From: a virus
DNA length: 32,140 nt
IMG/VR virus record: IMGVR_UViG_3300037189_010537
Span: 1-32,140 of that record
Strand: one strand, 5' to 3'
Made by a program: the position numbers and the translations under genes. The notes under the pieces are model-generated. The model was not told the origin of the DNA, did no database searches, and worked only from the letters and a program-made list of their open reading frames with translations. This document shows, in pieces, positions 2,813-26,344 of the stretch; positions within the stretch are counted from its first letter, which is position 1; every line of letters begins with the position of its first letter.

Positions 2813-2833
2813 TGTTTTATTCCTGGACCTCTA

Positions 2834-2841
2834 TATTTATA
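2834..2841 (-). promoter_or_regulatory. T4-late-type promoter box before the last fiber gene
   Basis: Read on the minus strand this is TATAAATA, an exact match to the T4 late consensus, preceded by C. It overlaps the stop codon of the upstream fiber gene and ends 21 bases before the ATG at 2812, leaving room for an initiation site and the AGGA ribosome site. It would let the distal fiber gene be transcribed separately late in infection. The match is exact, but activity is inferred, and AT-rich DNA makes chance matches possible. Confidence 0.6.
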
Positions 2842-4261: not shown

Positions 4262-4275
4262 TCTCTATTCCTTGA

Positions 4276-6147: not shown

Positions 6148-6151
6148 AGTT

Positions 6152-8654: not shown

Positions 8655-11600
8655 TTAACTGTAAGTTTGGCGCTCTATATAAATTGTAGGCAAAGCTGAT
8701 TGTTTTTCTAACAAGAATCGGGCCTGTGGAGTTGTGCTGTCGAGCAGACCTGTTCCATCAGTTGCTGTACCTAAACCAAGATTATACCAAAGTTCTGCTT
8801 GTTTTTGCACCACTAATAATTTTTTATCTAACTCGGGCAAGTCACGAAGTATTAAAGTATTAGTTAACGTGTTAATAGTAAACTCTGGATCATAATATGT
8901 ATCGCTATTATTCTCACCAGAATCGTATGCTAGGGCTGAATTATGTGTAATGCTTGTAAATTTGTTCAATTTTCTTCCTGCATAAAATACTTCAATAGAA
9001 TTTGTAGCGGTTGACTGAACAGGATCAACATTAACTAATAGATAAGAAGTGGTATTTGCAGTAATGAATGTGTCAGAAATAACATTTTCAGTATACGGAA
9101 TTGCTTGATTTTTACCTTGATCAACAACTGTAGTTCCAGAAAGATATAGTTCTTTTGCGCCAGTACCTAATGTTGTTCTTCTTAGTTGTCCAAGTGTATT
9201 CTTAGTTTTAGTAAAGTATTCAATGCGCTCTCCCTGAATCCAAACAACTCCAGGAATATTTTGTCCGGGTAACGGAATTTGCAGGATGTCGCCGTTGACT
9301 ACATGAATTTCAGCGTCAGTGATTGCTAAATCCTGAGCTAGGTATGTAGTGTTTGCTCCGCTATAACGAAGATACGATGTTCTTCCAAAGATGTCTTTAA
9401 ATATTCTAAATCCAACTTGCTTTCCTATAAATGTATCACTAAAACTAGTAATTACAACTTTGTCTGAAAGACTATATTCGTATGCTCTATTAATCTCAAC
9501 AGTGCGATGATCTTCAGATATTCTAAAATCGTAACTGTTTGTTAAAGGCTTGCCGCCGATAGAAACCCATACATAACTATCATCGACTACAGCACGTTCC
9601 ATCCGATACTTATTGCTGGATGATGCTCTGAACACTTCTGTTCTAATGTTAGAGGCATCGTGATTAGTAAATGTAATAATTTTAATTATGTCGCCACTTT
9701 CTACTGAAGTTAATAATCTAACTTCGTTATCATAAATTAAATATTCTGCTCCTAAGATCACAGTAATAGCAATTACATCGCCAATAGTAAGGAATCCGGC
9801 ATTAAATATTATTTGATTATTTGCTTGGTCTAAAATAAAATCAGTATACGGCCTTATTTTTTGTCCGTTTACATATACTTCAAGAGTCGACATTCCGAAT
9901 ATGCCACCTGGATTACTTTCATTTGGTCGAATATCGTAAATTAGTTGACTATCCGTTACTGCATAATATGTAGTTGCTGGAGGAGTCAATCGTTTTCCAT
10001 TTAATTCAACAATAGCCTGCGCATGGAATGGTCCTAAATTCCCCGGAGGCTGTATTAAGGTAAATGTAGAAGTAGATACAATATCTGGCGATCTAAAAAC
10101 AAGAGGCCAATATATAGTTATTGCTTGATTAAATCCAACTCCCCATCCATTAAATAGATTATTATGAGATGCATAAGTGACTGTATATTCTGCTCCGGTA
10201 GAATCTTTCATTGTCCAACCAGCCTGTATTTGTCTTGTAGATTCGTTTTCCTCTAGCACCCAGCCAGAGCCAACCGGCGGAGTAGCATTGTTAACATCAA
10301 AGGTAACATTTACTTGTTGCCCTGGCATTTTTATTATCTGCTCTTTAATTTCACTGTATCCCTTAAATTCAGCTTGGAAGAACCATGCCTGAATTAAATT
10401 TGTAGTATTTGGATTTAATCCATATACAGTTAGTTGTGCCAAATTATTCTTTTTACTAACCGGAGCTAATGAATATCTAAGAGTAGTTGCTGTTGATTCC
10501 GACAATGTCTCTCCGTTGACAGTAACATATATGCTACCAACATTGTTATAAGAAATCCATGTATTAACAATCTGTTTGGTTACTCCAGTGGATGTCGTTA
10601 TACTTGATCCAAGTATTTCGCTTCCACCGACACCGACTACTGTTATTCCTACAATACCGATTGAACTTTGTGTATTAATAGTCACTGTCTTTTCAATTAC
10701 GTTAAGACTGTAATCTATATCGTAGGTTAGATATTTTCCATTGTAAGATACTAGCACTGAAGAAGTACTTGTAGGTTGTTGTTTTAAATCAATAGTGTAA
10801 GAACTTGATGTTGAATCAATTATAGTTGTTTGCGTTACAATTAAAGGACTGCCGCCTGGCTCTCTAGTGAACACACTAATACTTAAACTTTCTTGAACCT
10901 CTCCAGGTACTACCTCTTCAGGAGCATGGCTAGTATACGGTGTTAAGAACCCATCGCCGTCAATAATAATATCGCTCGGACGTAGTCCTAAGGCTGTGGT
11001 ATAGGCCAAATCGCCGCCGTCGATAACTGTGTCAAGATTGCTTGACACATCGTTAAAACTCCACAATTCGACTACACTACCAACGGTTCCAGACACAGTT
11101 TGACTTAGTGTAGAATTAAATTTTATTGCGTTGGTAATAGTATTGATTGCTGTTACAAAAGTACTAGCAGTTGTAGAGAACACATTAGATATTGAACTGG
11201 TGTTAAGGATGTTAACATACTGCCCGAGTTTTACTCCATCAATAGTAGATAACACTACAGTGTCTGTTCCTGCAGGCGCAGTTGACAAAATATCTATTGT
11301 GGTAAAGAAATCAATATCGTTAGCATACGAACTTTGTTCATATGGTAAAACATCCCATGCAGAACTATAGGCAAAGGGTAATGTGTCTATATTAACTCCA
11401 GGATAGTCAAAGCCTTCCATTAGCTGGCCTAGCTCATTTCCTGGCATTCCGGTAGTAGGTAGATAATAATCTCTAATACGTTCCGCCGCTGAGTATAACC
11501 CAATATTTTTGTTATAAGATATTTGGATTGTCTGTCCTCTAGAAGGAACTGTCGACAACACTAATTCGCTGTATTTTTTATGGTATCCGTTATACAATGT

Positions 11601-14600
11601 GGAATACTCAGTAATAGCATAATCACTGGATAGCAAAGTTATACCATCTATCGTAATTTCAGTAGTAGATGCTAGTGCAGATGCATACCATGTTAAGGTA
11701 AACATAAAATCAGATCCAGAAGCAACAAATGTGTCAGTAGCTGTTTTATCAAGTATTTCAAATGTTGAAGTATTAGATGTGACTCGATCAAATTTCATCT
11801 TAACAACATTAGATCTAACTTTATGGTTTGCTAATCTAACATAGGCAGTAGCTGGAGTTAGATTAGAATCGCCTCCGCCAACAATTATTGCTGTTGGCGT
11901 TTTAGTATATCCGCTACCAGGTTTTGTTAATACTATTTCTCTTACTTTTCCGTAGGCAATGTACGCTACTGCTTCTGCACCACTGCCAGTGTCGCCGGCG
12001 GCAGGAATAATGTTAACCACAGGAGTTGTTCGGTATCCTGCACCATTTGAAATAATTTCAATGCTGTCTACTTCATATCCATAATTGTCATTCCATGCTT
12101 TATACGGATATTGATTAATTAATTCGTTACCAGTACCTATAGTAATGAAAGAATCGATCGTAGTATCGTATGCCGGCGGTAAATCAAAATCTGTTAGATA
12201 TGTATTATTAAGTTCATACGGTGCATCATTAGATTTACCTATTTGGTAATTTACCTGGTAATTTCTTATCTTAGTATGGAATGGTTTGATTTCCTCTAGA
12301 TAATTTTCATACCAAGTTGGATCCTGGAATCTGTAGGTAGAACGTTGATCTAATACGCCGGCGGCATTATTAACATTGATGAATGTAGTTTTAAATGCCC
12401 AATCTAATAATTTCTGCTCAGTCAGTGCATATTTTACTGCTTTGAAGAAAAACTTATTCCAATAGATTCTATAACTTCCTACAAATAGGTCATTTTTAAT
12501 TGCGGTAATAATATTCTTTAATTCAACGTCCGGAGTTTGATCATACAGCGTTTGATCATACGTTGTTTCTTGATCAAATCCCAGTTGTGCCTTGGCAGAA
12601 TCCCATATAGTGTCAAGTATCTGGATTGTACCTTTTTCACTATACACTACATCAAAGTCTGGATTAAATGTTCCATTAATTCCTGTATCTGTTTTTCTTA
12701 AGATTAGATAATATCCATCTCCTGGATTATTAAGTTTAACATAGTCGCCCGATACTAAATCTAATTTAGGCAATTCGTATGTTTCTTCTACAGTGGCAGA
12801 TAGTGTTTTAAATTTGTTAAAACTGGTGTCAACCCAATCAACATATTTCCAATACATTGATGTATCAAATTCTTGTGTATATGTTCGTACCCAGGTAGAT
12901 CCGTTCCATTCAAATTTACTCCACTTGCTGGAGAATTCTGGATCAATTTGAACAACCACAGTAAATGGTCTGACCAGTAGTGATGGCGCTGTAACAAAAC
13001 CGTATCCAGGATTGTCAATTATAGTATCTACAATTGACCCAGTAACTGAATCAATTACAGTTTTAATTACTGCGTTATTAGCGGACACTCCCATTACTAA
13101 AACAGTTGGAGCAATTTTATATCCGTATCCAGGATCATCAATAGATACCGAAGTGATCCTTCCGTTGGTTACCTGACAGCTTAATTGCGCCTGTTTTAGT
13201 GTTGCTGTAATTAATAGTCCGCGAGCTTCTACTGTTTCTACTACTAGATCGTATTCGCCCAATAATGCATTTGGAATTTCTTTCTTGGCATTTAGATTTT
13301 TAAAATTAAAAAATCCTCGTGTTCTTATAGTTGACAAAACGCCGTTAGTATAATCTACTAAATTATGAAGAGCCGCTCTTCTGTCAACAAACATTCCTTG
13401 TTTAGGACGAATTTCAATACCATATTTTAGTCTTGACGGCAATGAAGGATCTGGCACTAGATTACCGACGCTGTCCTTTCCTAATAGGCTGTCAAACAAT
13501 TTTGCTTCTAGCATTTTAGGGATAACGCTGTTTTCATTATTTTCTTGTACCAGCGCCCACTCGGTGTGTTTTTTAATGTTGTTTCCTAAATTGTCAAATG
13601 CTATGTTAAGATAGACCCGATCTCCAATTAAATTAGTTTGGAAATTAGTCAATGCTACGGCATCAGACGATAAGATTTCTAAATATTCCAAACCGTAAGA
13701 TTTTGGACTAGTTAATAAATTTGCCACATTGGCCGCAGATATTTTTCTTGTGGTTGACAACGGTACAATCGTTTTATTTTTTACCCAGAAATAATACAAG
13801 GTAGAGAATTCACCTGTGTTGTTATCGTATTTTTGCTTGGTACTATAAACTGTATTATCTGGGAATTTTGGACCGCCACTAATTCCTTTGGTCAACCCGT
13901 CATTAGTATCTGCTAATAATGTCCACTGGCTAGGATTATATGACGACTCTACCCATTCGTATACCGCTATTTCAACACCTGGGAATAACGATCCCCAATT
14001 TGATTTTCTATAATCGAGCTCGCCTTGTTCGTACCATACATATTTTACAGAAGTTAAGTCCCACCACAATTCACCAACATGGTCGTCTGTCCAAAAACGA
14101 TCAGCATTGACTACTACAGTGTCGTTACCCTCTTCATATATAGCTGGGTCAAACGCTGTTTTATATTTTAATTCTTGATCTGCTAGACCCGGAATACGTC
14201 CTTTTAAAGGATCTAAAATATCTAAGTAATCAAGTACACTTTCGTGTAGTGCATCAATAGTTGACGCATTTTTAATTAGACCGATGTCAATTAATGGTTG
14301 CTGTTCTCTATATAAATTCCAACTGTTTTTAGTTGTGTCTATTGGATTCCATATGTATAAAGATCCGTTTTGATTACCGTTTACTATGCTATTAATACTG
14401 CCAACTAATACCACATCATTAGAAACAACTACGCTATCTCCATATGAACTGTATTCGTCAACTGTATTGTCAAATAATTCTTCCGCAAGTAAGAATAGTT
14501 CATTATATCTATTATAAACATATGCAGTACCTGATCCGGTAATAATATCTCCAAATCGGCAGGCATCTCCGTCAAATGTAGTTGTTTCTCGATCGAAGGT

Positions 14601-17600
14601 ACTTCGATTTGCAAAGTTATCGCCTTGACTGGTTATAGATAATAATGTGTTGTCAGTACTGATGCTAATTGCATGTCCAAAATTTAATTTTGGTTCTTGT
14701 GTAGGATTTGCTATCTCTTGTAGTATTTCATACAGCCCAGTTGTAGAATTTATTTTATAAATCCACACCCTGCCTGGCCCAATAGCATCATATCGAGATT
14801 TAATTGATGACACAAACAAGTATGTCCCATCTTCACTCATTGCAATTTCAGATCCTAGTTCAGAACCGTAGCCAATTTTATTATCGAATTCTGCAAGTTC
14901 TGAAGATATAGTCTGAGTTAACTGATATTCATCGTTATCTAACACATAGATGTGGACTGCTCCTTTGGAGTGATCGACACCCGGTGAAGATACTGCAACT
15001 GTTGTCCCGTCTTGAGTTCCAACAATTTTTGCGCCAAATTGACTAGTGCTTGTTTGGTAGTGTACATTGTCTGTAATAACAGTAGGTAGCGTTAATTTTG
15101 TTTGGCTACCAGTTGTAATTGACACTGTTCTAAATGCACCAGTGCCGGTTGTAACATAAGAAACGATTGACCCCAGGGCATTAACTTCACTGATTTTAAT
15201 CTTAAGATCATTAAATGGACTTATTCCACCTAATAGATCTCCGGTTATTTTAAGTACATTTCCTACCACATAACCTGTACCAGTAGTGCCAACACCATTA
15301 AATTCTGTAGTATACTTTCCGGCGGCGGCAGTGACATCAAAAGTAGCCCCACTACCTATTAACACAGTACCGGTAGTAATAGATGCAGTAGATGTATATG
15401 TGACCGCAGTTGATTCTTCTATTGAAACATTAAACCTATAGACTAAACCTGTTGCGGTTGTTAGCGCAGTTGATGTATGCCCGGGCGCTCCTACTAATAG
15501 TATCTTAGTTCCAGTTGATCGTTGAACAAAAATACTGGTACCAAAATATGATCTATTCTGAGGCACAGGATCTGTAATCACAGCGTAAGGTATTGTTTCT
15601 GAAAAACTTGAATCAAAATATCCAGATATCTTAACAGCACCTAGGCTAACAAACGTGGTAGTATTATAGTAAGGCTGAGATAGATTAATAGGACGAGAGT
15701 ATGAAGGAGAATTATTAATTCTAATAAAACTGGCTTTAGATGCAGACGCAAATATTAATTCATCTGTTTCGTCATAAAATAGCGCATCTCCAAAAGGTGT
15801 GTTATCGTTTTGAGGACGATATTTTCTGTCAATTTCATTAAATCCATAATTAATAACTGGTCTTAATGTGGTTCCATTTAGTTTATAAACATATAGTCGA
15901 CCGTGACCTCCAACTGCATCAGTTTTATTAGGAGCAGACACTACCACCGTAGAACTATTAGATTGTTTAGCAATTTTATATCCGAAATCTTGTCCAGGGT
16001 AGTTAGTTGGGGCAACAGATTCAGTTTGAGAATAATTTTTAATTTTTTCTAACACGCCCCACCGGCCGTCACCAATATCGTCTACCCACATCAATTCATT
16101 AGGATGAATATCTGCAATGTATTTTAGTTTAGAAATATCGTCAACAGATTTAAATCTTACACTTTCAAATTTTGTTATTACTCCAGGCGGTAGTTTTACT
16201 GGAATATTTTGCACCTGTGTTGGTAATGTAAATTCTGTTAATGAATTAATTTCATCTAAAAAATACGAACCATTTAGGCCGGCATCAAAATTAGTAATTT
16301 GAATTAAATCGTCAATTTTAAAACTGTGATTATTGGCAGTTTTAATTTTAACTCTACCAACAGATACCAATGTAGCATTCACAATTTGATTAGACTGACG
16401 AGTATGTCTTAGTACATCCCAATCTCCGCTTGCATTAAATGCCACCCATACCTTATCTCCTTCTTGATAAGTTATAGTATTAGTTGATGTGGTAATAGCG
16501 CCAAGATTTAATGCCGACTGGGCAACATCATCTAATCTTACATATCCAGCATGAGGAAGTATTAGATTGTTATTTTTAAATGTTCCAGAACTTGTAACAA
16601 ACGTGTTACCTGGCACATAATCTTTAGGCAGTATAACAGCATCTTGAGGAGTTATATAAGATATTAATTTATTTTCTGCCTGTGGTACTGCAGAAACAAA
16701 ATTAATTAGTTGGCTATTTTCAACAAAATCTTGCTCTCTAAGAGGAAACTCAATCTCGTTAAAACTTGAAAAAGATCCAAAATAGCCTGTTCTAAATGCC
16801 CATTCTTCGTAGAGTTCTAATTTACCTTGAAGATTAGCAGTTGATGCTTTTTCTAATTTTGTTAAAGAATTTTTAGTTCCTTTTTCTCTGATGTAACCTT
16901 GATAAAATTTATATTGACTAATAGGGTTGTCAAAAATATTGTCAAGATAATTTCTAGGACTATACCCGGTTAGATGCTGAGCCATTTTCTGTTGGCCGGC
17001 ATCAAAATTGTCAATATCTAGACTATAAAAATCTTCAAATTGATTAATCTTGTAATCAAAGTTAGGCAACAACTGCGGAGTAGGTGCTTTGTTTAATGGA
17101 ATCCATTGTGTAAAATCAAAAGACTGCGATCCTGTAATTTTTAATTTGGCAGAATAATACTTTCCTACATATTCAACAACATCAGCAGGAAGATAATCAA
17201 CATAGGGAGTCCATGCCTGAATACTAGCATTGTCATAAACAAATCCAGGACTGAAGAAATCTCCTTCCCAGCCTGCGGTTTTAAATCCAAGTAATTTAAC
17301 TCTATACTGTCTGTATCCAGAATCAATTTGGTATAACACATCATTAAAAATAGTTGTATTATTAAAAATTAACGAGTGTTCTTTCTGTACTACATTTAAT
17401 CGAGCAAAGAAAATACCTTCGTAGGTATTTTTAGTATTAATAGTCAGTAAATTTCCATCACGTAAAGAACTAAAATTATTGCTAGGGAAAGCAAATCCGT
17501 CTGCACGTAATAGACTGTACTCATAGAAACTGTCAAATATGTTGTCAACTACACCTTCTTGAAACTTAAATTTTAATTTATTAGCAAATGGGCTTAATGT

Positions 17601-20600
17601 AATTACACTATTATCGGCCCAATTTTGCGTGGTCCAATACACAAACTCTCTTACAGTAAAAGACCAATTGATTGTCTGTTGGAAATCAGAATTATAATCA
17701 TCAAATATAAATCCTTGTTCCTCTAACCACTTTCCGTAACCGTATATAAAATCTGTAACTTCCTGGACTGTTGAAAATTTTGTTCCGTATGAAACAACTG
17801 TTTCTTGTGTTTCATAACGGAGTGCCTGCTGGACGCTGGTTCCTCCAACAGTTGGCAATACAGAAATAGATTTATAATATACTGGATTAAAGGTTGCGCC
17901 GGCACTATGATTTGCGATAACTCTATAGTAGGCGTTTTGATAAGACACAATTTGTCCAGCAATATAGATCTGACCTGTTTGCCAGGTTAAAAATTCTTCA
18001 GATTTTCCGCCAATAACAATAGACGGATCAGATACTAAATGAATAGGTTTGTAGGTTTTAAAATAAAGATTTTTCTTGTCATAGCCTCTAACAACAAATT
18101 TCCCATTTAGTTTTATAACTATAATTCCTGATATCGCAATTGTCTCAACAGGATTACTGACATTAAAATGTACTGTGTAATCTTCATCTGGTAGATAAGG
18201 TATTGTGCTCTTAGTGTCTAATTGTACCGCATCAATAACAATTTCTAATTTATCTTTGTTAACGAACCCGCCTAGTTTAGAAAATAAATTAAAATTACCG
18301 TACGTTAGTTGATTTTTTAATTGACTAGTATATGAGTTAGCTTTTTTCTTTCCTGCTTCAATTACATATACTCCATATCCAGAAGCTCGAATAGTATTTC
18401 CGTTAGAATCGACATCACCGAATAGCACTAGATCAGTTGGGTTAATAAAACCATTAGTTACATTATAGGTGTATTGTCCGGCATTATTCAATGTCATTCT
18501 GCTGGTGTCAAATAATTTTGCGGCATAGTCAGCTGGTTTAAGCAATGCCATTATTATTTGTATAGCGAACGGCCAATTGCTACTTTTGCGCCATGCGTTT
18601 TCTGCGGGACCCCAATCACTGAATGCCCATTCTTGATCAGTGTCAAGTATAGAATCGTTGGCGGCAATGCCTGCCCAAGATCTAACATCGATTACATTTC
18701 CACTGTCATCAACTGGAATAATTTGACCTAGCCCTGGGCGAGCATACAACGGATTGATGCCTGCATTTGGTCCTTGAGCGATAAGCCCAGCTTCTAGATC
18801 AGTCCATAATTTTGCATTACCTGCTGTATATGGGGCTGGTCCGTAATAGCTGTCCCACCAATCAGGTTTAATACTAATACCTAACATTTCCCAAGGATGT
18901 GTATTTGGGCGATCGGTATCGAAGTAATACTTGTAAATTGCTCGCCAACTTCCAGGTAGTGGCTTGTTGAACACATAGTCGACGGCAGATTTATAATTGT
19001 ATGTTTTATGATTGTCTATATCGTATGTTAAATTTGTTTCAACATCAACTCCATATTTGCCAGCCCACTGTACAAATAAATCTGTAACTAAATTATAAGT
19101 CTCTCTGTATGAATATAGTTCATTCCTAAACACCCCCGGCAACAAACTATTGATGTCAAATAAATCGCTGTCGTAGGTAGTTTTAATATTGTTATAAATT
19201 CTTTTTTCGTATTCTAAGATAACTGCATCGCGATAGTCATTGAATGCCACTAATAAACTGCCATCGTGGCCTTGTATTACATTGACAGGTCCGTTAGCAT
19301 AAGAGGTATCTAAATATATAGATGGTTGATATTTTGGATACAATCCTAATTTAGTAGGAGTTGGTGCTATATAACACCCGTCAGTATCTAAGTATTCGTA
19401 GATAGTGATTTGATCGCCAGGGATAACATTAACTAATAATCCGACACTGGTTTCATATTGATTAAAACTATAATCTTTACCAAGAATTAATTGTTCGCCG
19501 TTTAGGTATACCAATACCGCTTGATTTGAAACTGCATCAGGATTAAAAATATTAGTAATTGAATAATCAGTATTTCGACTGTCTGTTACAGTATATTGTC
19601 TAGTCTTTTTATTTGTTCCATATGGAACCATGTCACTTAATAGGTAGGCAAAAGAAGTATTTTTACTACTATTCAATACTGAAATCGCTGTGTCTAATAA
19701 TTCAGGAGCAGACGCATTATTTTCTAATTGAGAAATGGTTCTAATTAAATTTAATTTAAATTGATTATAATCATCGTTAGCCTGTTGTATGGCTTCGATA
19801 AGATTGTTGTCTTTATTGCTTATAAAATATTGAGCCATTGACAACGGATTAGCACTACTAATAATCCTAGTTCCGTATGCAGTTGTGTTAGGCAATTGAC
19901 TTAGATTACTCACACCAATATAAGATCCGCTGAACTCAGGATCGCGATTGACCATGGTGTGAACATGGTCGTACAATTCGCTCAGTGTTAATTCTGCAAC
20001 TGGACCATTTAATGGGTTGTTGGTAAGATTTATAGGAGTTAGATACGTGCCGTCGACATTAGCGGCTGTATCGGATAAAATTTCAAATTTAACTTTTGAT
20101 CCTACGGCAACGTCAGTTGTAAATTTAACAAACAATAAATTATTTTCTGCTACCAGAGTATAGTCTTGATCTAACTTATATTTAGAATTGTCAACATATA
20201 CATCAATAACAAAATCAGTTATGTATCCAGGATTGTCAAATACAGTAATTTCAATTTGATCAGTTACTGTTTCGGTTACCTGAAACTGAATAACAGGAAT
20301 TTTGTATTCGTTAGATTTTGTCCATACATTTAAATAGGTTGTTGTATTTTCGTTGAGCTTTAGATATCCGCGGCTAACTGGAAAGGTTTCTGCTATATCT
20401 GGAAAAACTCTAATAACCTGGTCAGTATTAAAATAATTTAAAAATAGAAAAGAACTTTCAAGATAGGTATTTTTATATTGTAGGGGAAAACCTAAAATTG
20501 GATCGTTCGCTCCTGTGCCTACTCCATATCCAAACACGCGAGTACCTTCAAAATTACTAGTATAGGAATCGCCGCCGTAACTATTGCCAAGGTTGTCAAA

Positions 20601-22214
20601 AACATCAAAAAGTGGTGCTTGATTAATTGTAGTTTTTTGTTGTGAATAAATCCAACTGTCTGTATTGTACCACCAATCTCCAAAATTATTAGTTCCTTGA
20701 TCTACCGCAACACAGGCGCCTGTAAACGGGATAGAATCTTCCGTTGGCACAAGGCTAATTTTTCTTCTATTTTCAATTGTTACAAAGTTAACTTCATAGA
20801 TACGTCCTCGAACTAACGGATCAGTATCGGCATTAAAAACTACTCTATGTCCTTGATCTAACAGTACTCCGTCGACCCAATAACTTGCAGAACCTTCAAC
20901 ATTTGAAAACGCATCTTTAACGGAAGTATCCATTAGAGTAATGTTAGCTACTGCACGATTTCCAAAATTAAATAATTGTAGGTTAGGGATGAATTCAACG
21001 ATAGGACGTTGTGCCTGTTTGTCAGTAGGCAATATTACCGATTCGCCGTTAGCTTCTGCTACCGCAGTTAGTACATTTGCATGAAACCACCGATTGTATC
21101 GAGACCAAGGATTTAAATCAAGACTGGCTCGATTAATTGTCACATACGAAGGATCTATTGGAATGTTTTTAAAATTGTCGAACGGAAATTCGTCAAAATT
21201 TTCAGCATCAAAATTAGAATTGTAAAGCTCCGCCGAAGTTTCGGGTGTAACCAATAAATCATAATCTACTAGTTTGATTGATTTACCCACACCTTCAACA
21301 ATATAAGTTTTATTGGCATAGGTGTCCGGCATTACTGTGCCGCCAAACGTTACTTTAAGACCGTTAACAAATTCTACACCGTTGCCAGATTTAAATTGCG
21401 CCTTGCCGGCAATTTCGTTGTCTACATCTATAAAACTATTTTCAGTAATACTTTTAATTACAATTTTGCCAATGCCAATTTGATCACTGTCTGCACCGTA
21501 AAACAATACTGTAGGGGTTGTGTCTGTGACAGTTATTATTACCTGTCCTTCAGCCGACCCGTTGCCTACTACGTCAGTGGTATATAAATCAGTTATACTG
21601 TAGTCAGGATTATTTCTAATATAAAACTTATGATCGGTAACTACATTGAAAACGTATGTCACGCCTCGATACAGAGTTATTTGAGGACTTTCTGTGATTC
21701 CGTCTGGACTAAAAACAAAGAAACGACCATCTGAATTTAATGTTACTGTAAATGTGCTAACTAATTCTCGTTGTGTTCCCGTAATTCTAATTGGTTCTGG
21801 GCCTGTTGGTAACCAATAGTAATTTCTATAGTTAATTAATTTGTCCCAGTCTATTTGCGGATCATAGCTGTAGGTGTCAGGTCTAAACAATTTGTCTAGG
21901 TTGTCAACATTTCCGCCATGGTATGCAACCTGATTAATTAAATCATCATATCCATAAGCACGATCAACTGTTCCGTCTTTTTTACGAATAATTAGTCCAG
22001 GTTCTAATTGATATTTTCTTCTTAAGGGCAATGGGTCTGAAATATATTGATCTTTTTCAGGATTATAATTTGGACTTAGTTTACTACCGATGAATCCGTT
22101 TAATCTTTCCAGCTGAGGTGGAGATATAAATTGGTCTAAGGTGCTAGATAAAAATTTTGAATTTTTATCTGTTCTATAATAAACCGGTAGAAAATTTATA
22201 GATTTACGTGCCAT
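8655..22214 (-). CDS. Giant baseplate-wedge-position protein (4519 residues) with a FG-GAP-like beta-propeller
   Basis: Occupies 42% of the window; about 500 kDa by residue count. The N-terminus (MARKSINFLPVYYRTDKNSK, LDQFISPPQLERLNGFIG, KYQLEPGLIIR, INYRNYYWLP, 1-135) looks like a conserved attachment region. It follows gp6 after two bases, the place of T4 gp7 (1032 residues), so a gp7-like wedge role is inferred from synteny. Residues about 2077-2625 contain seven repeats of the form (F/L/Y)G-x-x-(I/L/V) ... (V/A)SS-x-G ... G-x-(V/L)-(Y/W)-(I/V)Y, starting near 2077, 2141, 2224, 2393, 2453, 2512 and 2591: a probable seven-bladed propeller. GxGY-P repeats lie at about 3020-3090 and 3385-3445. 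Small modules of the form VxVNGxxL..DY..GDxI recur near 898, 3515, 3816, 4108 and 4212. The C-terminus has PGVVWIQGERIEYF and LGQLRRTTLGTG (about 4316-4352). No catalytic motif, signal peptide or membrane segment was recognised. One uninterrupted frame, no sign of frameshift. Confidence 0.85.
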   Translation of the reverse strand: MARKSINFLPVYYRTDKNSKFLSSTLDQFISPPQLERLNGFIGSKLSPNYNPEKDQYISDPLPLRRKYQLEPGLIIRKKDGTVDRAYGYDDLINQVAYHGGNVDNLDKLFRPDTYSYDPQIDWDKLINYRNYYWLPTGPEPIRITGTQRELVSTFTVTLNSDGRFFVFSPDGITESPQITLYRGVTYVFNVVTDHKFYIRNNPDYSITDLYTTDVVGNGSAEGQVIITVTDTTPTVLFYGADSDQIGIGKIVIKSITENSFIDVDNEIAGKAQFKSGNGVEFVNGLKVTFGGTVMPDTYANKTYIVEGVGKSIKLVDYDLLVTPETSAELYNSNFDAENFDEFPFDNFKNIPIDPSYVTINRASLDLNPWSRYNRWFHANVLTAVAEANGESVILPTDKQAQRPIVEFIPNLQLFNFGNRAVANITLMDTSVKDAFSNVEGSASYWVDGVLLDQGHRVVFNADTDPLVRGRIYEVNFVTIENRRKISLVPTEDSIPFTGACVAVDQGTNNFGDWWYNTDSWIYSQQKTTINQAPLFDVFDNLGNSYGGDSYTSNFEGTRVFGYGVGTGANDPILGFPLQYKNTYLESSFLFLNYFNTDQVIRVFPDIAETFPVSRGYLKLNENTTTYLNVWTKSNEYKIPVIQFQVTETVTDQIEITVFDNPGYITDFVIDVYVDNSKYKLDQDYTLVAENNLLFVKFTTDVAVGSKVKFEILSDTAANVDGTYLTPINLTNNPLNGPVAELTLSELYDHVHTMVNRDPEFSGSYIGVSNLSQLPNTTAYGTRIISSANPLSMAQYFISNKDNNLIEAIQQANDDYNQFKLNLIRTISQLENNASAPELLDTAISVLNSSKNTSFAYLLSDMVPYGTNKKTRQYTVTDSRNTDYSITNIFNPDAVSNQAVLVYLNGEQLILGKDYSFNQYETSVGLLVNVIPGDQITIYEYLDTDGCYIAPTPTKLGLYPKYQPSIYLDTSYANGPVNVIQGHDGSLLVAFNDYRDAVILEYEKRIYNNIKTTYDSDLFDINSLLPGVFRNELYSYRETYNLVTDLFVQWAGKYGVDVETNLTYDIDNHKTYNYKSAVDYVFNKPLPGSWRAIYKYYFDTDRPNTHPWEMLGISIKPDWWDSYYGPAPYTAGNAKLWTDLEAGLIAQGPNAGINPLYARPGLGQIIPVDDSGNVIDVRSWAGIAANDSILDTDQEWAFSDWGPAENAWRKSSNWPFAIQIIMALLKPADYAAKLFDTSRMTLNNAGQYTYNVTNGFINPTDLVLFGDVDSNGNTIRASGYGVYVIEAGKKKANSYTSQLKNQLTYGNFNLFSKLGGFVNKDKLEIVIDAVQLDTKSTIPYLPDEDYTVHFNVSNPVETIAISGIIVIKLNGKFVVRGYDKKNLYFKTYKPIHLVSDPSIVIGGKSEEFLTWQTGQIYIAGQIVSYQNAYYRVIANHSAGATFNPVYYKSISVLPTVGGTSVQQALRYETQETVVSYGTKFSTVQEVTDFIYGYGKWLEEQGFIFDDYNSDFQQTINWSFTVREFVYWTTQNWADNSVITLSPFANKLKFKFQEGVVDNIFDSFYEYSLLRADGFAFPSNNFSSLRDGNLLTINTKNTYEGIFFARLNVVQKEHSLIFNNTTIFNDVLYQIDSGYRQYRVKLLGFKTAGWEGDFFSPGFVYDNASIQAWTPYVDYLPADVVEYVGKYYSAKLKITGSQSFDFTQWIPLNKAPTPQLLPNFDYKINQFEDFYSLDIDNFDAGQQKMAQHLTGYSPRNYLDNIFDNPISQYKFYQGYIREKGTKNSLTKLEKASTANLQGKLELYEEWAFRTGYFGSFSSFNEIEFPLREQDFVENSQLINFVSAVPQAENKLISYITPQDAVILPKDYVPGNTFVTSSGTFKNNNLILPHAGYVRLDDVAQSALNLGAITTSTNTITYQEGDKVWVAFNASGDWDVLRHTRQSNQIVNATLVSVGRVKIKTANNHSFKIDDLIQITNFDAGLNGSYFLDEINSLTEFTLPTQVQNIPVKLPPGVITKFESVRFKSVDDISKLKYIADIHPNELMWVDDIGDGRWGVLEKIKNYSQTESVAPTNYPGQDFGYKIAKQSNSSTVVVSAPNKTDAVGGHGRLYVYKLNGTTLRPVINYGFNEIDRKYRPQNDNTPFGDALFYDETDELIFASASKASFIRINNSPSYSRPINLSQPYYNTTTFVSLGAVKISGYFDSSFSETIPYAVITDPVPQNRSYFGTSIFVQRSTGTKILLVGAPGHTSTALTTATGLVYRFNVSIEESTAVTYTSTASITTGTVLIGSGATFDVTAAAGKYTTEFNGVGTTGTGYVVGNVLKITGDLLGGISPFNDLKIKISEVNALGSIVSYVTTGTGAFRTVSITTGSQTKLTLPTVITDNVHYQTSTSQFGAKIVGTQDGTTVAVSSPGVDHSKGAVHIYVLDNDEYQLTQTISSELAEFDNKIGYGSELGSEIAMSEDGTYLFVSSIKSRYDAIGPGRVWIYKINSTTGLYEILQEIANPTQEPKLNFGHAISISTDNTLLSITSQGDNFANRSTFDRETTTFDGDACRFGDIITGSGTAYVYNRYNELFLLAEELFDNTVDEYSSYGDSVVVSNDVVLVGSINSIVNGNQNGSLYIWNPIDTTKNSWNLYREQQPLIDIGLIKNASTIDALHESVLDYLDILDPLKGRIPGLADQELKYKTAFDPAIYEEGNDTVVVNADRFWTDDHVGELWWDLTSVKYVWYEQGELDYRKSNWGSLFPGVEIAVYEWVESSYNPSQWTLLADTNDGLTKGISGGPKFPDNTVYSTKQKYDNNTGEFSTLYYFWVKNKTIVPLSTTRKISAANVANLLTSPKSYGLEYLEILSSDAVALTNFQTNLIGDRVYLNIAFDNLGNNIKKHTEWALVQENNENSVIPKMLEAKLFDSLLGKDSVGNLVPDPSLPSRLKYGIEIRPKQGMFVDRRAALHNLVDYTNGVLSTIRTRGFFNFKNLNAKKEIPNALLGEYDLVVETVEARGLLITATLKQAQLSCQVTNGRITSVSIDDPGYGYKIAPTVLVMGVSANNAVIKTVIDSVTGSIVDTIIDNPGYGFVTAPSLLVRPFTVVVQIDPEFSSKWSKFEWNGSTWVRTYTQEFDTSMYWKYVDWVDTSFNKFKTLSATVEETYELPKLDLVSGDYVKLNNPGDGYYLILRKTDTGINGTFNPDFDVVYSEKGTIQILDTIWDSAKAQLGFDQETTYDQTLYDQTPDVELKNIITAIKNDLFVGSYRIYWNKFFFKAVKYALTEQKLLDWAFKTTFINVNNAAGVLDQRSTYRFQDPTWYENYLEEIKPFHTKIRNYQVNYQIGKSNDAPYELNNTYLTDFDLPPAYDTTIDSFITIGTGNELINQYPYKAWNDNYGYEVDSIEIISNGAGYRTTPVVNIIPAAGDTGSGAEAVAYIAYGKVREIVLTKPGSGYTKTPTAIIVGGGDSNLTPATAYVRLANHKVRSNVVKMKFDRVTSNTSTFEILDKTATDTFVASGSDFMFTLTWYASALASTTEITIDGITLLSSDYAITEYSTLYNGYHKKYSELVLSTVPSRGQTIQISYNKNIGLYSAAERIRDYYLPTTGMPGNELGQLMEGFDYPGVNIDTLPFAYSSAWDVLPYEQSSYANDIDFFTTIDILSTAPAGTDTVVLSTIDGVKLGQYVNILNTSSISNVFSTTASTFVTAINTITNAIKFNSTLSQTVSGTVGSVVELWSFNDVSSNLDTVIDGGDLAYTTALGLRPSDIIIDGDGFLTPYTSHAPEEVVPGEVQESLSISVFTREPGGSPLIVTQTTIIDSTSSSYTIDLKQQPTSTSSVLVSYNGKYLTYDIDYSLNVIEKTVTINTQSSIGIVGITVVGVGGSEILGSSITTSTGVTKQIVNTWISYNNVGSIYVTVNGETLSESTATTLRYSLAPVSKKNNLAQLTVYGLNPNTTNLIQAWFFQAEFKGYSEIKEQIIKMPGQQVNVTFDVNNATPPVGSGWVLEENESTRQIQAGWTMKDSTGAEYTVTYASHNNLFNGWGVGFNQAITIYWPLVFRSPDIVSTSTFTLIQPPGNLGPFHAQAIVELNGKRLTPPATTYYAVTDSQLIYDIRPNESNPGGIFGMSTLEVYVNGQKIRPYTDFILDQANNQIIFNAGFLTIGDVIAITVILGAEYLIYDNEVRLLTSVESGDIIKIITFTNHDASNIRTEVFRASSSNKYRMERAVVDDSYVWVSIGGKPLTNSYDFRISEDHRTVEINRAYEYSLSDKVVITSFSDTFIGKQVGFRIFKDIFGRTSYLRYSGANTTYLAQDLAITDAEIHVVNGDILQIPLPGQNIPGVVWIQGERIEYFTKTKNTLGQLRRTTLGTGAKELYLSGTTVVDQGKNQAIPYTENVISDTFITANTTSYLLVNVDPVQSTATNSIEVFYAGRKLNKFTSITHNSALAYDSGENNSDTYYDPEFTINTLTNTLILRDLPELDKKLLVVQKQAELWYNLGLGTATDGTGLLDSTTPQARFLLEKQSALPTIYIERQTYS
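14344..15986 (-). other. Segment encoding a probable seven-bladed FG-GAP-type beta-propeller
   Basis: Within the giant gene, residues about 2077-2624. The blades read FGYKIAKQSN...VVVSAPN...GRLYVYKL; FGDALFYDETDELIFASA; FGTSIFVQRS...LLVGAPGHT...GLVYRFN; FGAKIVGTQDGTTVAVSSPG...GAVHIYVL; LGSEIAMSEDGTYLFVSS...GRVWIYKI; FGHAISISTDNTLLSITS...GTAYVYNR; YGDSVVVSNDVVLVGSIN...GSLYIWNP. Spacing is 59-83 residues except between blades 3 and 4 (169), where an extra beta module is inserted. This matches the FG-GAP repeat of integrin alpha chains and many surface adhesins, although the calcium loop DxDxDG is not complete in any blade. Fold and adhesion role are inferred. Confidence 0.75.
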
Positions 22215-22216
22215 TC

Positions 22217-25200
22217 TTATTGTCCGTTCGTATTAGTTACAATTGACCCTGAGGTTTTTAGTTGTGATGCTGTTATTGCATCAATGATTTCAATGTCGCT
22301 GACTGTTGCTCCGCTGACAAAAATTTCATTGCTCTGGCAAGTAACTTCGTAGAGACTTCCAAACGTGCCTATTGAGTTAGGAACCACAATAAAATTAGTA
22401 ATGTCTGGAGTTAATTTATTCATAACATATGTAGATAGTTCGCTAAAATAAAATGTATCTCCAAAATCCCAATTGTCAATACTAAAGAATTCTTCAACGG
22501 CAGCAATGATTCTAGTTTTTAAATCATTGTTACTGGCTGTACTTGATCCGCTTCTTACTGCTTTGAATGTGCCTTGCAACGGTAGATCAGCTAGATTTCC
22601 AAATAATACTTTATAGCGAGTTGGTTGAAATATTAATTCATCACTAATTGATTTGATCTGTTCAAGACTAGATGCAAAATTTTCTTCAAGACTACTGCTT
22701 GTCGGCGGAGTAGGTTCTGACCCAATCCTGGTTGTTAGCCAATTACGATATTCAGTATCGTAACTTCTTGTTAATAGATATACGTCAATTAAATTAGTTT
22801 TACTAGGATCAATTCTACGTTCCTCACCGCTGTTGTGTAGATAATGGAATTTTAAATTAGATCTACCGTAGTATGCAAAATAGTCAGGTTCTAACACATA
22901 CTCTTGTGCATCTGCAGACCATCGTTTAATAACATTAATGTCCGGTGCATAGAAATAATATAGCTGACCGTTGACAGGATCTGTTACCGGCTGCTCTGTT
23001 GGGTAAGATAAAATAACATCTGTAGCAACCTGATATCTTTGACCATCGCTCAGATATTTAAAAAATACAAATTTGTCATTATACGCAGTTTGTAAACTGA
23101 CAGAGTCAGGTTGAACAATATTATTAAATGCATCAGGATCGTCAATTTGTCCGTTTTCATCTGCATCAAAGAAACTGATCTTAACTTTACTAGGATTAAT
23201 AAATCCGTCGGGCTCAACAGTTGCACTGTTTATTTGCCAACGATAGTCGACTCCTAATAAACTAATATCTCTTGGAGCATCAGGAGCACTTACTGTTACA
23301 GTACCAGTAGTATATCCGGTGCCACCGTCAATAGTTAATACTCCAGTAATAGAACCATTTGTTATAATAGGGTAAAATTGTCCGCCAGTAAGCCCGTCGA
23401 CTAAAATTGTCGGAGTTGACAAATAACCAGTTCCGGAATTAACAATTGAAAATCCTGTAATTGATCCGTTGTCGTTTGATGAATATACTTCGATTTCTGC
23501 AGACGTTGGTGTTGAAATGCTGTTATTAATAGACAGCACTTTAATCTGATCTTTAATAACAGTATTATTAACAAAATCATAACTTTTCTTATCGCTATCT
23601 ACATAAAATGCTGTCTCGGCAACACTTTCGAATAGATAATCCAATGTTCTATAACGCACACGATAGTCCATGCCTGTCCATTCAAAAGACACGAACCAAC
23701 TGCTGTCTTTGTTAGTGTTTGAAACATCTTTTTGGAATACCAAACTAAACGCATTAATAAAATTTACGTTATTGGTAGAAACAATATACCAAGCTCTGGT
23801 TATTGAATCAAAACTTAACCCAAAATTTTGTTTTGAAGTACAAATTTTAACAATTTCAGATTTAATTGCAGTTGACAATATTGATGCATATGCAGGTATA
23901 ATTTGAGATACCACTGCACCGTCTGGCACAGTTCCAGTCAATGTAATAGGACCGGCCCCAGTTGACAGTAAAGCTAACCCGTTATTAAATCCGTCACCGA
24001 TAACTCCTACCACTTTAGACCATATATAATTTCTAGTGGTGGAATCTTTAACACTAGTTAAAGTTCTATTAGGTAAGAAATAATATCCAGCTGGTGGAAT
24101 AAATTTAATAAGAGATCCAGGTACTACATACTTGAGATCATTATCTGTGTATTCGCCTACAGGCACAGGATTGGTTAAATTTTTAAAATATCCGTTAGTC
24201 TGATTAGTGTTTTTTTGTGCTTGAGTCCATGTAAGTTCTGTACCGCTGGCATTGATTCTAGGATATTGATCTAGATATAAACTACGCATCTCAGCACTGG
24301 TTACGATTTCTGACAGTTGATTGTCAATAATTCCTATAATGTCGCTTTCGTTAAAAAAGTTAAAATTAAAACTATTTTCTAGTGGACTGCGATATAAGAT
24401 ACCGTCGTTGGCAAAAATATTTGTACTGCTGTATTTTCCGCTGACATCAGAAAGTTCAAAATATTTGCTGACTCCGCTGGAAATTCTGTTGATGCTTTTA
24501 ATTTTTAAAATATCGTTGCCTGCTGTCAGAGGAGCAATATTATAATCCTCAGCAGTGATCATTCTATTTTGTAGATAATAATTTTGTGGAGCTTTAAGTT
24601 TAATCTGCTCAGTTGTTTCTGATGCAGAGCTGTTGCTTACAGTAGTCTGTAAACTACAGATAATTGTTAAAACAGAACTTTGACCATTTTTATTAACATA
24701 AGGTATTGACAATCTAATGTTGTTTAACTGTTGAGGTTTAATAACATAATTTAGACCGTTGCTTTGTCTATAGAAAAATGCAAATTGTCCTTTGGGAAGA
24801 TTTCCAAAACTTCCATCAGAAAAATTAATATCTATCTGATCGTTTTCTCTAGTAGAAATTCCGTAGATGTTTCTTTCACTGTTATTCACACTATTGTAGA
24901 TAACATTATTACCTACAAAGTCATTGACCTTGGTCCATAATTTACTGTAATTTCCAGACACATCTAATTGCCATAACCATGTATCTGAATTGTTTACATC
25001 AGGTGCGTTAACAGAAACAATAGCGTTTGGTACCGGAGTAACTACATTGAAGTTTTGTACGCTTAACGCACCTTCTCTAAAATGCACAAAAAATCCAGTG
25101 TTGGCTGAGGCATTTCCTTGATTGTCGTTTTTATATATAAAGCTAAACTGAGTTGCAGGTTTAGGAGCTTCTTCATATACATATGTTTTGTTGGCAAACG

Positions 25201-25849
25201 AACTCGAAACAACTTCAAAGTTCATCTGTGTCCCACTGATGTTGGCATTAAAACTGTAAACTGGAATGTTTGTATTTGAACTGTTAATTCTATATTGATG
25301 ATGTTCAATAGCATCAATAGTTGAAAGGTCGTACGGACGACCAAATACAAAAGAGCCAGGCATGGCGCTGTTTATAACAGATATAAATTGTTGGTACCAA
25401 TTGGTGTTAGTAGGATCGTTCCAGTTAATAACTGCACCAGCTAGATTATTACCATTAACGTCTGTTACGTTGTCGTTTGTTGAAACTGCTAAAATTTTAA
25501 GAAATCCGTTAGCTGGAATATTACGTTTAGCGTTATAGCTAATAAGACGTGCTAGTCTTAACACGCTGTCTCTGCGTTGGGCAGTTTCTAAAAAGTTTTC
25601 TCTAGCATTTAAATCAATACGGAAACTTATATTTTGACCTAGGTAAGCAATAAGATCAATTAATGCAATGTACTCGCTAGAGTCAATATAATCGTTAAAG
25701 TCTTCTGGATAGTTCTCACGCAGATACGTGATCATAGTTCTGCGTAAAGTTTCAAAGTCATAGCTTTCGAAATCCGCGTTTCTATAACTTTCGTAGATCT
25801 TGGTCCAGTCTTCAGCGACTAATAATTTGTTTGTAGTTGATGGTATCAT
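22217..25849 (-). CDS. gp6: Baseplate wedge protein gp6, enlarged
   Basis: T4 gp6 dimers join neighbouring wedges and make the iris that opens the baseplate. This copy has 1210 residues against 660 in T4. The N-terminus is typical: DWTKIYESYRNADFESYDFE, TLRRTMITYLRENYPEDFND, SSEYIALIDLIAYLGQNISF, RIDLNARENFLETAQRRDSV, LRLARLISYNAKRNIPANGF (15-117). The C-terminus is also the conserved one: FYFSELSTYVMNKLTPDITN, FGSLYEVTCQSNEIFVSGAT, IEIIDAITASQLK. The extra length is in the middle, including two GxGY-P repeats (about 797-860: VNSGTGYLSTPTILVDG and GGTGYTTGTVTVSAP) like those in the giant neighbour. Its gap upstream (57 bases) is the longest in the minus block and carries two late-promoter-like boxes; no clear Shine-Dalgarno is visible. 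The start is supported by the intact N-terminal match. Confidence 0.93.
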   Translation of the reverse strand: MIPSTTNKLLVAEDWTKIYESYRNADFESYDFETLRRTMITYLRENYPEDFNDYIDSSEYIALIDLIAYLGQNISFRIDLNARENFLETAQRRDSVLRLARLISYNAKRNIPANGFLKILAVSTNDNVTDVNGNNLAGAVINWNDPTNTNWYQQFISVINSAMPGSFVFGRPYDLSTIDAIEHHQYRINSSNTNIPVYSFNANISGTQMNFEVVSSSFANKTYVYEEAPKPATQFSFIYKNDNQGNASANTGFFVHFREGALSVQNFNVVTPVPNAIVSVNAPDVNNSDTWLWQLDVSGNYSKLWTKVNDFVGNNVIYNSVNNSERNIYGISTRENDQIDINFSDGSFGNLPKGQFAFFYRQSNGLNYVIKPQQLNNIRLSIPYVNKNGQSSVLTIICSLQTTVSNSSASETTEQIKLKAPQNYYLQNRMITAEDYNIAPLTAGNDILKIKSINRISSGVSKYFELSDVSGKYSSTNIFANDGILYRSPLENSFNFNFFNESDIIGIIDNQLSEIVTSAEMRSLYLDQYPRINASGTELTWTQAQKNTNQTNGYFKNLTNPVPVGEYTDNDLKYVVPGSLIKFIPPAGYYFLPNRTLTSVKDSTTRNYIWSKVVGVIGDGFNNGLALLSTGAGPITLTGTVPDGAVVSQIIPAYASILSTAIKSEIVKICTSKQNFGLSFDSITRAWYIVSTNNVNFINAFSLVFQKDVSNTNKDSSWFVSFEWTGMDYRVRYRTLDYLFESVAETAFYVDSDKKSYDFVNNTVIKDQIKVLSINNSISTPTSAEIEVYSSNDNGSITGFSIVNSGTGYLSTPTILVDGLTGGQFYPIITNGSITGVLTIDGGTGYTTGTVTVSAPDAPRDISLLGVDYRWQINSATVEPDGFINPSKVKISFFDADENGQIDDPDAFNNIVQPDSVSLQTAYNDKFVFFKYLSDGQRYQVATDVILSYPTEQPVTDPVNGQLYYFYAPDINVIKRWSADAQEYVLEPDYFAYYGRSNLKFHYLHNSGEERRIDPSKTNLIDVYLLTRSYDTEYRNWLTTRIGSEPTPPTSSSLEENFASSLEQIKSISDELIFQPTRYKVLFGNLADLPLQGTFKAVRSGSSTASNNDLKTRIIAAVEEFFSIDNWDFGDTFYFSELSTYVMNKLTPDITNFIVVPNSIGTFGSLYEVTCQSNEIFVSGATVSDIEIIDAITASQLKTSGSIVTNTNGQ

Positions 25850-25906: not shown

Positions 25907-26344
25907 TTAAACAACTGAAAGACCAATTTCTTTGTCAAAATTTAACTTAAGGACCTGGGTCTGATCTGATCCTATATATTGCAGAGTTATCTCTAATAAT
26001 AGTCCGTATTCTTGTTCTACTACGTTTATTTCTAATGCGGATGCTCGTGGATCACTAGTTACTATCCTGGTAACATCGTCTGCAATTTGACGCTTAGTTT
26101 GATCCGTTAATGGATCAAACAACAGATCCCATATGATTGTACCAAACTTAGGATCCATGACTCTTTCATTTTTTCTAACCTGGAATTGATTCAGTATGTC
26201 TTGTTTGATTAGATCATAGTCATATAATTTAACATCAGTGGCGTTAGGATTAACCGTGCTGAATCCTTTATAAAACTGACTCTGTTTTGCAGTATGTCTG
26301 TCAGAATATTTGACAGGATTAAGGGTTTGACTAACGTATGGCAT
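25907..26344 (-). CDS. gp25: Baseplate wedge protein gp25 (GPW/gp25 family)
   Basis: 145 residues (T4 gp25 has 132). In T4 and related contractile systems gp25 sits at the inner wedge, clamps gp6 and gp53 and starts sheath polymerisation. Recognisable are LYDYDLIKQDILNQFQVRKN (40-59), ERVMDPKFGTIIWDLLFDPL (60-79), TKRQIADDVTRIV (82-94), then INVVEQEYGLLLEITLQYIG near the C-terminus. The family is sometimes called lysozyme-like because of early reports, but no lytic residues are evident here and a structural role is expected. It starts eight bases after the spike gene and ends 57 bases before gp6, the usual gp25-gp6 order of aquatic T4-like phages. Confidence 0.93.
   Translation of the reverse strand: MPYVSQTLNPVKYSDRHTAKQSQFYKGFSTVNPNATDVKLYDYDLIKQDILNQFQVRKNERVMDPKFGTIIWDLLFDPLTDQTKRQIADDVTRIVTSDPRASALEINVVEQEYGLLLEITLQYIGSDQTQVLKLNFDKEIGLSVV

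Follow-up and report, generated by a model that had tools for sequence, protein, structure and literature searches.

A predicted seven-bladed FG-GAP propeller within a giant baseplate-associated protein of large, mostly uncultured phages

The propeller of integrin alpha chains carries calcium-binding motifs of the DxDxDG type in blades 4-7 and has the alpha-I domain inserted where blade 2 passes into blade 3; its ligand-binding face corresponds to the propeller top, and both of its ends exit at the bottom face. It is built from seven FG-GAP blades preceded by an N-terminal velcro strand (e.g. PDB 9ind, 8vs6 and 7usm). Phages, too, are already known to have propellers in their tails and to encode FG-GAP proteins. 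The available part of PMC9509320 describes the nozzle of SU10 as a seven-bladed propeller that holds short tail fibres, has a fibre-dock loop on blade 1 and bears Ig-like domains inserted between its second and third blades, and the accessible portions of other accounts present the phi11 receptor-binding protein (RBP) as having a propeller of five blades and a putative sugar site, and phiKZ gp131C as a seven-bladed propeller of a peripheral tail protein. In the titles and abstract openings of the open-licence literature, we found no phage baseplate protein described as containing an FG-GAP propeller.

The window analysed here (the whole stretch of 32,140 nucleotides of the IMG/VR record) encodes on its minus strand a giant protein of 4519 aa (8655..22214), a homologue of PA5oct gp355, RaK2 gp465 and CBB_236 that falls into phrog_10938, a virion structural protein family. 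By gene order and family assignment, genes for a gp6-like (22217..25849, minus strand, phrog_10646) and a gp25-like baseplate wedge subunit (25907..26344, minus strand, phrog_261) lie directly upstream, as is the case for T4 gp7; downstream follow four fibre-like genes with a common N-terminal domain, and the giant-protein gene thus sits between gp6-like and fibre-like genes. A first-pass annotation had placed the protein at the baseplate wedge, which its gp6- and gp25-like neighbours support; a likeness to gp7, however, did not emerge from three PDB profile searches and one fold comparison. The profile searches (residues 1-420, 940-1420 and 2632-3400) returned no baseplate protein, their sole match below 0.01 being the tailspike Dpo31 (0.003), over a short repeat-like stretch, and the AlphaFold2 model of residues 940-1420 used for the gp7 comparison (pLDDT 65) gave nothing useful (Z at most 2.9). 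The gp6-like protein likewise found nothing relevant among PDB sequences, with a single row at chance level (0.81).

The giant protein is probably part of the phage tail tip. The window's own protein is known from its gene alone, and its homologue by sequence comparison, CBB_236, was detected in virions with 21 unique peptides at 7.72% coverage (Table 4 in the available part of PMC5259590). PA5oct gp355 carries an ESI-MS/MS annotation, and phAPEC6 gp245, as presented in the accessible portion of PMC7247149, is probably a further virion homologue, its orthology being judged by size and gene neighbourhood. CBB_236, PA5oct gp355 and RaK2 gp465 share the gene order of the window; unlike the window, the PA5oct and RaK2 proteins yielded no propeller in a profile test covering these two.

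Pfam, a family profile and an AlphaFold2 model together place a seven-bladed, integrin-type FG-GAP propeller with an inserted module at residues 2059-2628 (14331..16040, minus strand). Of the two Pfam families proposed by the first-pass annotation, PF14312 (FG-GAP_2) matches residues 2021-2680 at 27.3 bits (cut-off 23), with blade 7 as its best stretch, and detects 54 of 59 family members, the window included, at E 0.01; over the whole 4519-aa protein its score is 19.1 bits, under the cut-off, and PF01839 matches no more than 3/59 members. A single-blade HMM, constructed from 286 homologue blades (blades 1, 3, 4, 5 and 7 only, the window left out), detects five blades above 5 bits in the whole giant protein, all of them within the propeller region, and none in 200 shuffles of that region. 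The profile of all 59 propellers retrieves 48 PDB sequences, with integrin alpha-4 as the best (4.4e-18) and Lp49 as the one non-integrin row (0.026). The window propeller sequence alone found no integrin alpha chain in the PDB, and PHROGs assigned no family to any of the 59 propellers.

The AlphaFold2 model of the propeller (pLDDT 84.5, pTM 0.84) reads as seven four-stranded units, in which the first strand of blade 1 comprises only two residues and blade 7 takes its outer strand from the N-terminus. Compared with the propeller-only integrin alpha-V chain, 375/440 residues align at 3.2 A (Z 33.8), and the alignment spans the whole integrin propeller. Integrin alpha propellers match the model with Z 33-37 at ~3 A, with ~15% identity in most rows, and the best 50 matches in each of two structure comparisons are all integrins; the SU10 nozzle and phiKZ gp131C are not among these, which does not exclude a resemblance to them. 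The integrin-type fold proposed in the first-pass annotation is thus supported by model and family profile, and its seven positions coincide with the FG-like motifs at F2077, F2141, F2224, F2393, L2453, F2512 and Y2591. A count of seven blades in the modelled fold is well supported, and the strand list and integrin alignment predict that they form a single closed ring.

All parts of the propeller are encoded on the minus strand. Its upstream anchor, WGVLEK (residues 2052-2057, 16044..16061), marks the point at which the chain departs from the host domain, and is followed by the N-terminal velcro strand (residues 2059-2067, 16014..16040; model and alignment). Integrin alignments start with residue 19 of the model paired to the first integrin residue, and by analogy with integrin topology this strand is expected to supply the outer strand of blade 7. 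The interval first given for the repeats, 14344-15986, does correspond to residues 2077-2624, but the propeller begins at about residue 2059, because the velcro strand precedes blade 1, and the gene lies on the minus strand. Family consensus, model and single-blade HMM agree on blades 1 (residues 2077-2123, 15846..15986), 3 (2224-2278, 15381..15545), 4 (2393-2437, 14904..15038), 5 (2453-2502, 14709..14858) and 7 (2591-2628, 14331..14444), the last of which Pfam supports as well. Blades 2 (2141-2214, 15573..15794) and 6 (2512-2580, 14475..14681) have long loops and score -3.9 and 4.5 bits in the single-blade HMM; in the window they rest on the family consensus and the strands predicted by AlphaFold2. 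In blade 2 the long loop joins strands 2 and 3, and the blade is weak in the window and clear in the family consensus. The corresponding loop of blade 6 (residues 2532-2561, 14532..14621; family alignment) has a family motif consisting of FD, a variable-length stretch and then TTFD...T.F; its D2548 is invariant (59/59), as are several glycines across the 59 sequences. Between blades 3 and 4, the top loop with the inserted module (residues 2279-2392, 15039..15380) comprises 114 residues that form no blade and are in part of low pLDDT. The host domain resumes at the downstream anchor WNLYREQQPLID (residues 2632-2643, 14286..14321), a site at which propeller-less phages carry shorter or different segments.

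Like integrins, the phage family has an extra domain in a top loop between blades; unlike the alpha-I domain, however, this module lies between blades 3 and 4 or between blades 6 and 7. The family further differs from integrins in that its propeller is embedded in a phage protein and in that the calcium-binding pattern [DN]x[DN]xDG occurs in just 2/59 members and is absent from 57/59, a count in which residues 2632-2637 are taken as strand 4 of blade 7. The nozzles of SU10 and of T7-type phages resemble the window in having a seven-bladed propeller in a tail protein, but they belong to short-tailed phages and line the tail channel. The platform domain of the phi11 and 80alpha RBPs and phiKZ gp131C place a propeller at the periphery of baseplate or tail, the phi11 RBP being trimeric with five blades versus the seven of the window. 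A propeller-like FG-GAP fold also occurs in the Atu_ph07 'hemagglutinin' (A0A2L0UZX4) and a virion structural protein of cyanophage S-TIM5 (H6WG31), which the window propeller matches in BFVD at E 6.3e-16 and 1.2e-12, respectively. These entries comprise 393 and 407 aa, unlike the 4519-aa giant protein, and the giant protein of Atu_ph07 itself lacks a propeller, unlike that of the window.

The propeller-carrying group consists of large, mostly uncultured tailed bacterial viruses. Among the matches listed, distinct sequences of the C-terminal flank numbered 189, of which 171 carry a propeller and 18, including all 6 named phages compared, do not; these counts are not population frequencies, because the IMG/VR loci were selected by similarity to the window or PA5oct and several contigs are present twice. 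In a quick tree of these flanks one change in propeller presence suffices (SH-aLRT 95), and no loss is seen among the sampled sequences of the propeller-bearing side (171/171). The tree, in which the window's protein is L001, carries long-branch warnings for SCTP-2, L227 and L174 and for PA5oct with L170 and L171; the nearest row to SCTP-2 by tree path is propeller-bearing. It omits further copies of the window contig (L009, L089, L177), rows whose C-flank match is short, identical C-flanks, and L245, whose contig stops before the slot. In its simplest reading, a seven-bladed FG-GAP propeller would have entered the giant baseplate-associated protein once, in the ancestor of a large phage group. 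Three propeller queries against 50,697 phage records gave no match in the giant protein and a single weak one (E 9e-3), which fell in another Phosso phage protein. A scan of 84,980 species genomes with the C-flank turned up no relative, and plasmids gave it no match. Between the conserved flanks, whose ends vary somewhat, the slot varies widely in length: ~139 aa (RaK2), 295 aa (Vibrio phage 2.275), 327 aa (PA5oct), 432 aa (SCTP-2), 1526 aa (Phosso) and 1528 aa (Atu_ph07). A sugar-binding jelly-roll, suspected by eye in the SCTP-2 slot, was dropped after Pfam and PDB searches had found nothing.

Few parts of the giant protein vary as much as the propeller, with its mean pairwise identity of 0.27 versus 0.46 for residues 940-1840 and 0.48 for residues 2640-2970 (n = 121 sequences). 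Its strands diverge more than the C-flank in 35 of 40 close pairs without shared rows, and in the 63 pairs with an N-flank the median identity is 0.79 for the propeller versus 0.84 and 0.87 for the flanks. No clear exchange of a whole propeller between close relatives was found in 74 pairs; among the 25 most extreme pairs listed, the biggest drop with both flanks present was to 0.55 versus 0.77 and 0.86. The pair L185/L186 (C-flank 91%, propeller 40%), one of the 40 close pairs, was rejected as an exchange: the L185 gene is broken within the propeller, where ~5.35 kb of unrelated sequence separates two stretches that match at 94% and 82%, and the two are therefore not compared like with like.

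Top and bottom faces were assigned by analogy with integrins, and the limits of each loop were chosen manually on the model. Among the 59 members, insertions that exceed the median by more than 20 aa number 22 in 13 top loops versus 0 in 14 bottom loops; the cases are not all independent, since members are related, and one 'bottom loop' is really the exit segment, because the count takes residues 2632-2637 as the fourth strand of blade 7. The loop between blades 3 and 4 is an insertion hot spot, exceeding the median by at least 35 aa in 7/59 members with inserts of several kinds. The window's insert had no Pfam match, and its 95-aa core was absent from the phage records searched. By eye, the inserts of the window, L010 and L011 are similar. 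At the top loop between blades 6 and 7, four of eight close relatives carry a domain of ~120 aa that the others lack, by gain or loss; this domain looks 'Ig-like' by eye in L055, L112, L115 and L121, and the copies of L055 and L115 had no Pfam match. The idea that substitutions make the top face hypervariable was not borne out: with the same strand assignment, top loops were more substituted than bottom loops in 18 and less in 21 of 40 close pairs (p = 0.09).

If the chain enters and exits the propeller at its bottom, as it does in integrins, the top should face outward from the giant protein. The top would then act as a mounting plate, whose strand 2-3 and inter-blade loops could accept whole extra domains and on which the conserved blade 6 loop with its TTFD motif may keep a fixed site. 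We infer orientation in the virion, exposure and host contact from these features; a bottom-anchored platform, whose top would present itself to the host or to exchangeable domains, seems to us an evenly balanced proposition. The likeliest job would be contact with the host surface, through the propeller top or domains mounted there, and the gain of whole domains on one face makes the ring a good candidate platform for it. The fold, the place beside wedge genes, the virion homologues, the one change on the tree, the variability of the propeller, its one-sided insertions, the domain gained or lost between blades 6 and 7, and the precedents of the phi11 RBP and SU10 nozzle would favour such contact, whereas the top loops are not more substituted and the integrin-type calcium pattern is absent in 57/59. 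One-sided insertions may also be mere tolerance.

It is possible, if rather doubtful, that the propeller instead serves docking or assembly in the baseplate, holding tail fibres or neighbouring wedges in the manner of the SU10 nozzle, whose fibre-dock loop and Ig-like domains, as far as the available part of that source goes, provide a precedent. The position of the gene between gp6-like and fibre-like genes would suit this, and the conserved TTFD loop would fit a fixed partner. However, all 6 named phages with a propeller-less giant protein still have the N-terminal domain of the fibre-like genes, so that this class of fibre does not need a propeller there; this speaks against fibre docking, which the first-pass annotation had offered beside receptor binding, as the sole purpose. 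Docking would also sit poorly with a propeller more variable than most of the giant protein. That variability and the insertions would agree with a purely structural role, in which a robust domain without binding function fills a module-exchanging slot that is occupied otherwise elsewhere, from the ~139 aa of RaK2 to the 1528 aa of Atu_ph07; yet this seems improbable given that no loss was seen among the propeller-bearing sequences of the tree (171/171) and given the invariance of D2548 and several glycines in 59 sequences.

Returning to host contact, we tentatively consider, as a rather unlikely extension, that an integrin-like receptor head is built into the baseplate wedge, a conserved propeller held by its bottom, whose hot-spot loops would swap entire binding domains in an alpha-I-like fashion, such that host range may shift at the wedge and not at the fibres alone. 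A seven-bladed integrin-type propeller in a giant protein encoded beside wedge genes, kept in all 171 sampled sequences of its side of the tree and with long insertions on one face alone, offers a concrete target for studying the host contact of large uncultured phages.

The minus strand of the window carries a baseplate gene block with a gp25-like gene (phrog_261, 8.8e-18) and a gp6-like gene (phrog_10646, 8.4e-287), directly downstream of which lies a 4519-aa ORF (8655..22214, minus strand), the giant protein to which residue numbers refer below. Two homologue searches matched 59 and 65 phage records, respectively; residues 1-1840 and 2631-3378 are to a large extent conserved across large phages, and homologues occur in PA5oct, RaK2, 121Q, CBB, Atu_ph07, Phosso, SCTP-2 and Vibrio phage 2.275. 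The CBB counterpart, CBB_236, occupies the matching position after gp6- and gp25-like genes and was detected in virions by 21 unique peptides (Table 4 of PMC5259590). Similarly, the annotation of PA5oct gp355 records detection by mass spectrometry, and a 382-kDa protein of phAPEC6, listed beside the wedge protein with 17 unique peptides (PMC7247149), is probably an orthologue judging by its size and gene position. PDB profile searches of three stretches and one fold comparison revealed no link to T4 gp7. A CBM_5_12 match at residues 1410-1441 (25.3 bits) falls slightly below the cut-off of 26.2. A gp5-like hub protein (26353-28308, minus strand) has a weak C-terminal VanY/peptidase M15 match (18.4 bits, cut-off 25), at the place where a lysozyme is annotated in CBB and RaK2. 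Four consecutive fibre-like genes (1208-7948, minus strand) have in common an N-terminal domain of about 100 residues (41-43% identity to the first gene's copy), which was matched in all 15 related records examined, most of which contain several copies.

The first-pass annotation had recognised seven FG-GAP-like repeats at 14344-15986, i.e. residues 2077-2624, and its seven positions indeed coincide with seven FG-like motifs of the giant protein. The PF14312 search proposed there detects FG-GAP_2 on residues 2021-2680 (27.3 bits, Pfam cut-off 23), the score on the whole protein being only 19.1 bits, and the window's propeller sequence by itself matched nothing in the PDB. Adding homologues makes the case strong. 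Among 59 members 54 match FG-GAP_2 (best 1.7e-24), the consensus displays seven blades, and the family profile matched 48 PDB sequences (best integrin alpha-4, 4.4e-18), all integrin alpha chains except for one weak row. A blade HMM built without the window's sequence recovers five of its seven blades and nothing else above 5 bits across the 4519 residues, with no hit above this score in 200 shuffles.

In an AlphaFold2 model from the 59 sequences (pLDDT 84.5, pTM 0.84) we read the predicted strands as seven four-stranded units. Every one of the 50 Foldseek matches listed from the PDB is an integrin (best 2.8e-13), and VIA-align superimposes the model on integrin alpha-M (Z 36.8, 372 residues, 2.9 A) and on a propeller-only alpha-V chain (Z 33.8, 375/440 residues, 3.2 A), with alignments starting at residue 19 of the model and residue 1 of the integrin. 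The blade count made by eye agrees with the model, and such a full alignment to the integrin propeller makes another number hardly likely.

The propeller is bounded by upstream (residues 2052-2057) and downstream (2632-2643) anchors of the host domain, between which propeller-less phages possess short or other segments. It was absent from all six named homologues compared in full, whose segment between conserved flanks spans about 139 to 1528 aa, and a search of 50,697 phage records with three propeller queries detected no copy in this protein. PA5oct, RaK2, SCTP-2 and Vibrio 2.275 lack any FG-GAP match at E 0.01, while Atu_ph07 and Phosso have such repeats in other proteins. Sinorhizobium phage Phosso (PV764938.1) harbours long arrays at 48386-56545, 57900-68978 and 92220-94493, its 55 FG-GAP_2 matches (counted by hand) being distributed over a 3702-aa frame (33), a 3182-aa frame (14) and two frames of about 400 aa (8). 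The corresponding segment of SCTP-2 (L005), about 432 aa and part jelly-roll by eye, had no match in Pfam or PDB searches. In IMG/VR, first scans revealed the propeller in 160/160 giant-protein ORFs, two of them copies of the window's own contig; 159 were found by default search (133 distinct propeller sequences) and one (L142) with filters off. A PA5oct-led scan found it in 67/80 ORFs, one being too short for a verdict. Matches at E 0.001 were confined to one giant ORF per contig in 15/15 larger contigs. In a quick tree of 189 sequences of the conserved stretch following the propeller (C-flank), with root not fixed and some long branches unsure, one branch divides 171 sequences with propeller from 18 without (SH-aLRT 95), a single change compared with a mean of 17.4 when presence and absence are shuffled; the simple reading would be a single gain.

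Few parts of the protein are as poorly conserved as the propeller (identity 0.27 vs 0.46-0.48 in the flanks), and in close pairs it evolves faster than the C-flank. Insertions exceeding the median by more than 20 aa number 22 in 13 top loops and none in 14 bottom loops, and loop length spread differs likewise (p = 0.0002); in close pairs, top loops show 1243 gap columns beside 6021 compared sites, bottom loops 112 beside 2115. Inserts make a hot spot of the blade 3-to-4 loop, where 7/59 members including the window have long ones of several kinds. Of eight close relatives (C-flank identity 80-89% in listed pairs), four carry a domain of about 120 aa in the blade 6-to-7 loop and four lack it. 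In close pairs, however, top loops do not accumulate substitutions faster than bottom loops, which disfavours a simple receptor-race picture. The blade 6 loop (residues 2532-2561, window 14532-14621) stands out from the rest of the top face by its conservation: FD and a variable stretch precede a conserved TTFD...T.F, and D2548 is kept in 59/59. A TFD stretch resembling this motif occurs in the blade 2 loop of locus L060. In L185 (2750-8101; also L187) about 5.35 kb, absent in L186, breaks the giant gene inside the propeller and contains a 134-aa ORF, TnpB-like by eye.

In the integrin propeller both chain ends exit at the bottom face, the top face being the ligand-binding side. If the phage propeller has this topology, its top face should point outward.

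The main rival, that the propeller docks fibres or wedges, is possible but less likely. The SU10 nozzle docks this way by a seven-bladed propeller which, like the present family, carries inserted domains, Ig-like in SU10 (as described in PMC9509320); yet the N-terminal domain common to the four fibre-like genes downstream in the window is present in 6/6 named phages whose giant protein has no propeller, so docking of that fibre class cannot be the propeller's only reason. The phi11 receptor-binding protein, with a putative sugar site, illustrates that receptor binding is among the roles open to a baseplate propeller in phages (accounts in PMC7048315 and PMC6115969).

Propellers in phage tails and FG-GAP proteins of phages are already known, but no paper found in the open-licence literature describes, going by titles and opening lines of abstracts, an FG-GAP/integrin-type propeller in a phage baseplate protein. 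What is new is that a giant baseplate-associated protein incorporates a propeller of integrin type, one that is old in its group and has one-sided domain insertions. The best-supported reading, to which we give roughly even credence, is that it would act as a mounting plate, anchored to the baseplate by its bottom, whose top face, together with the domains mounted there, may be presented to the host.
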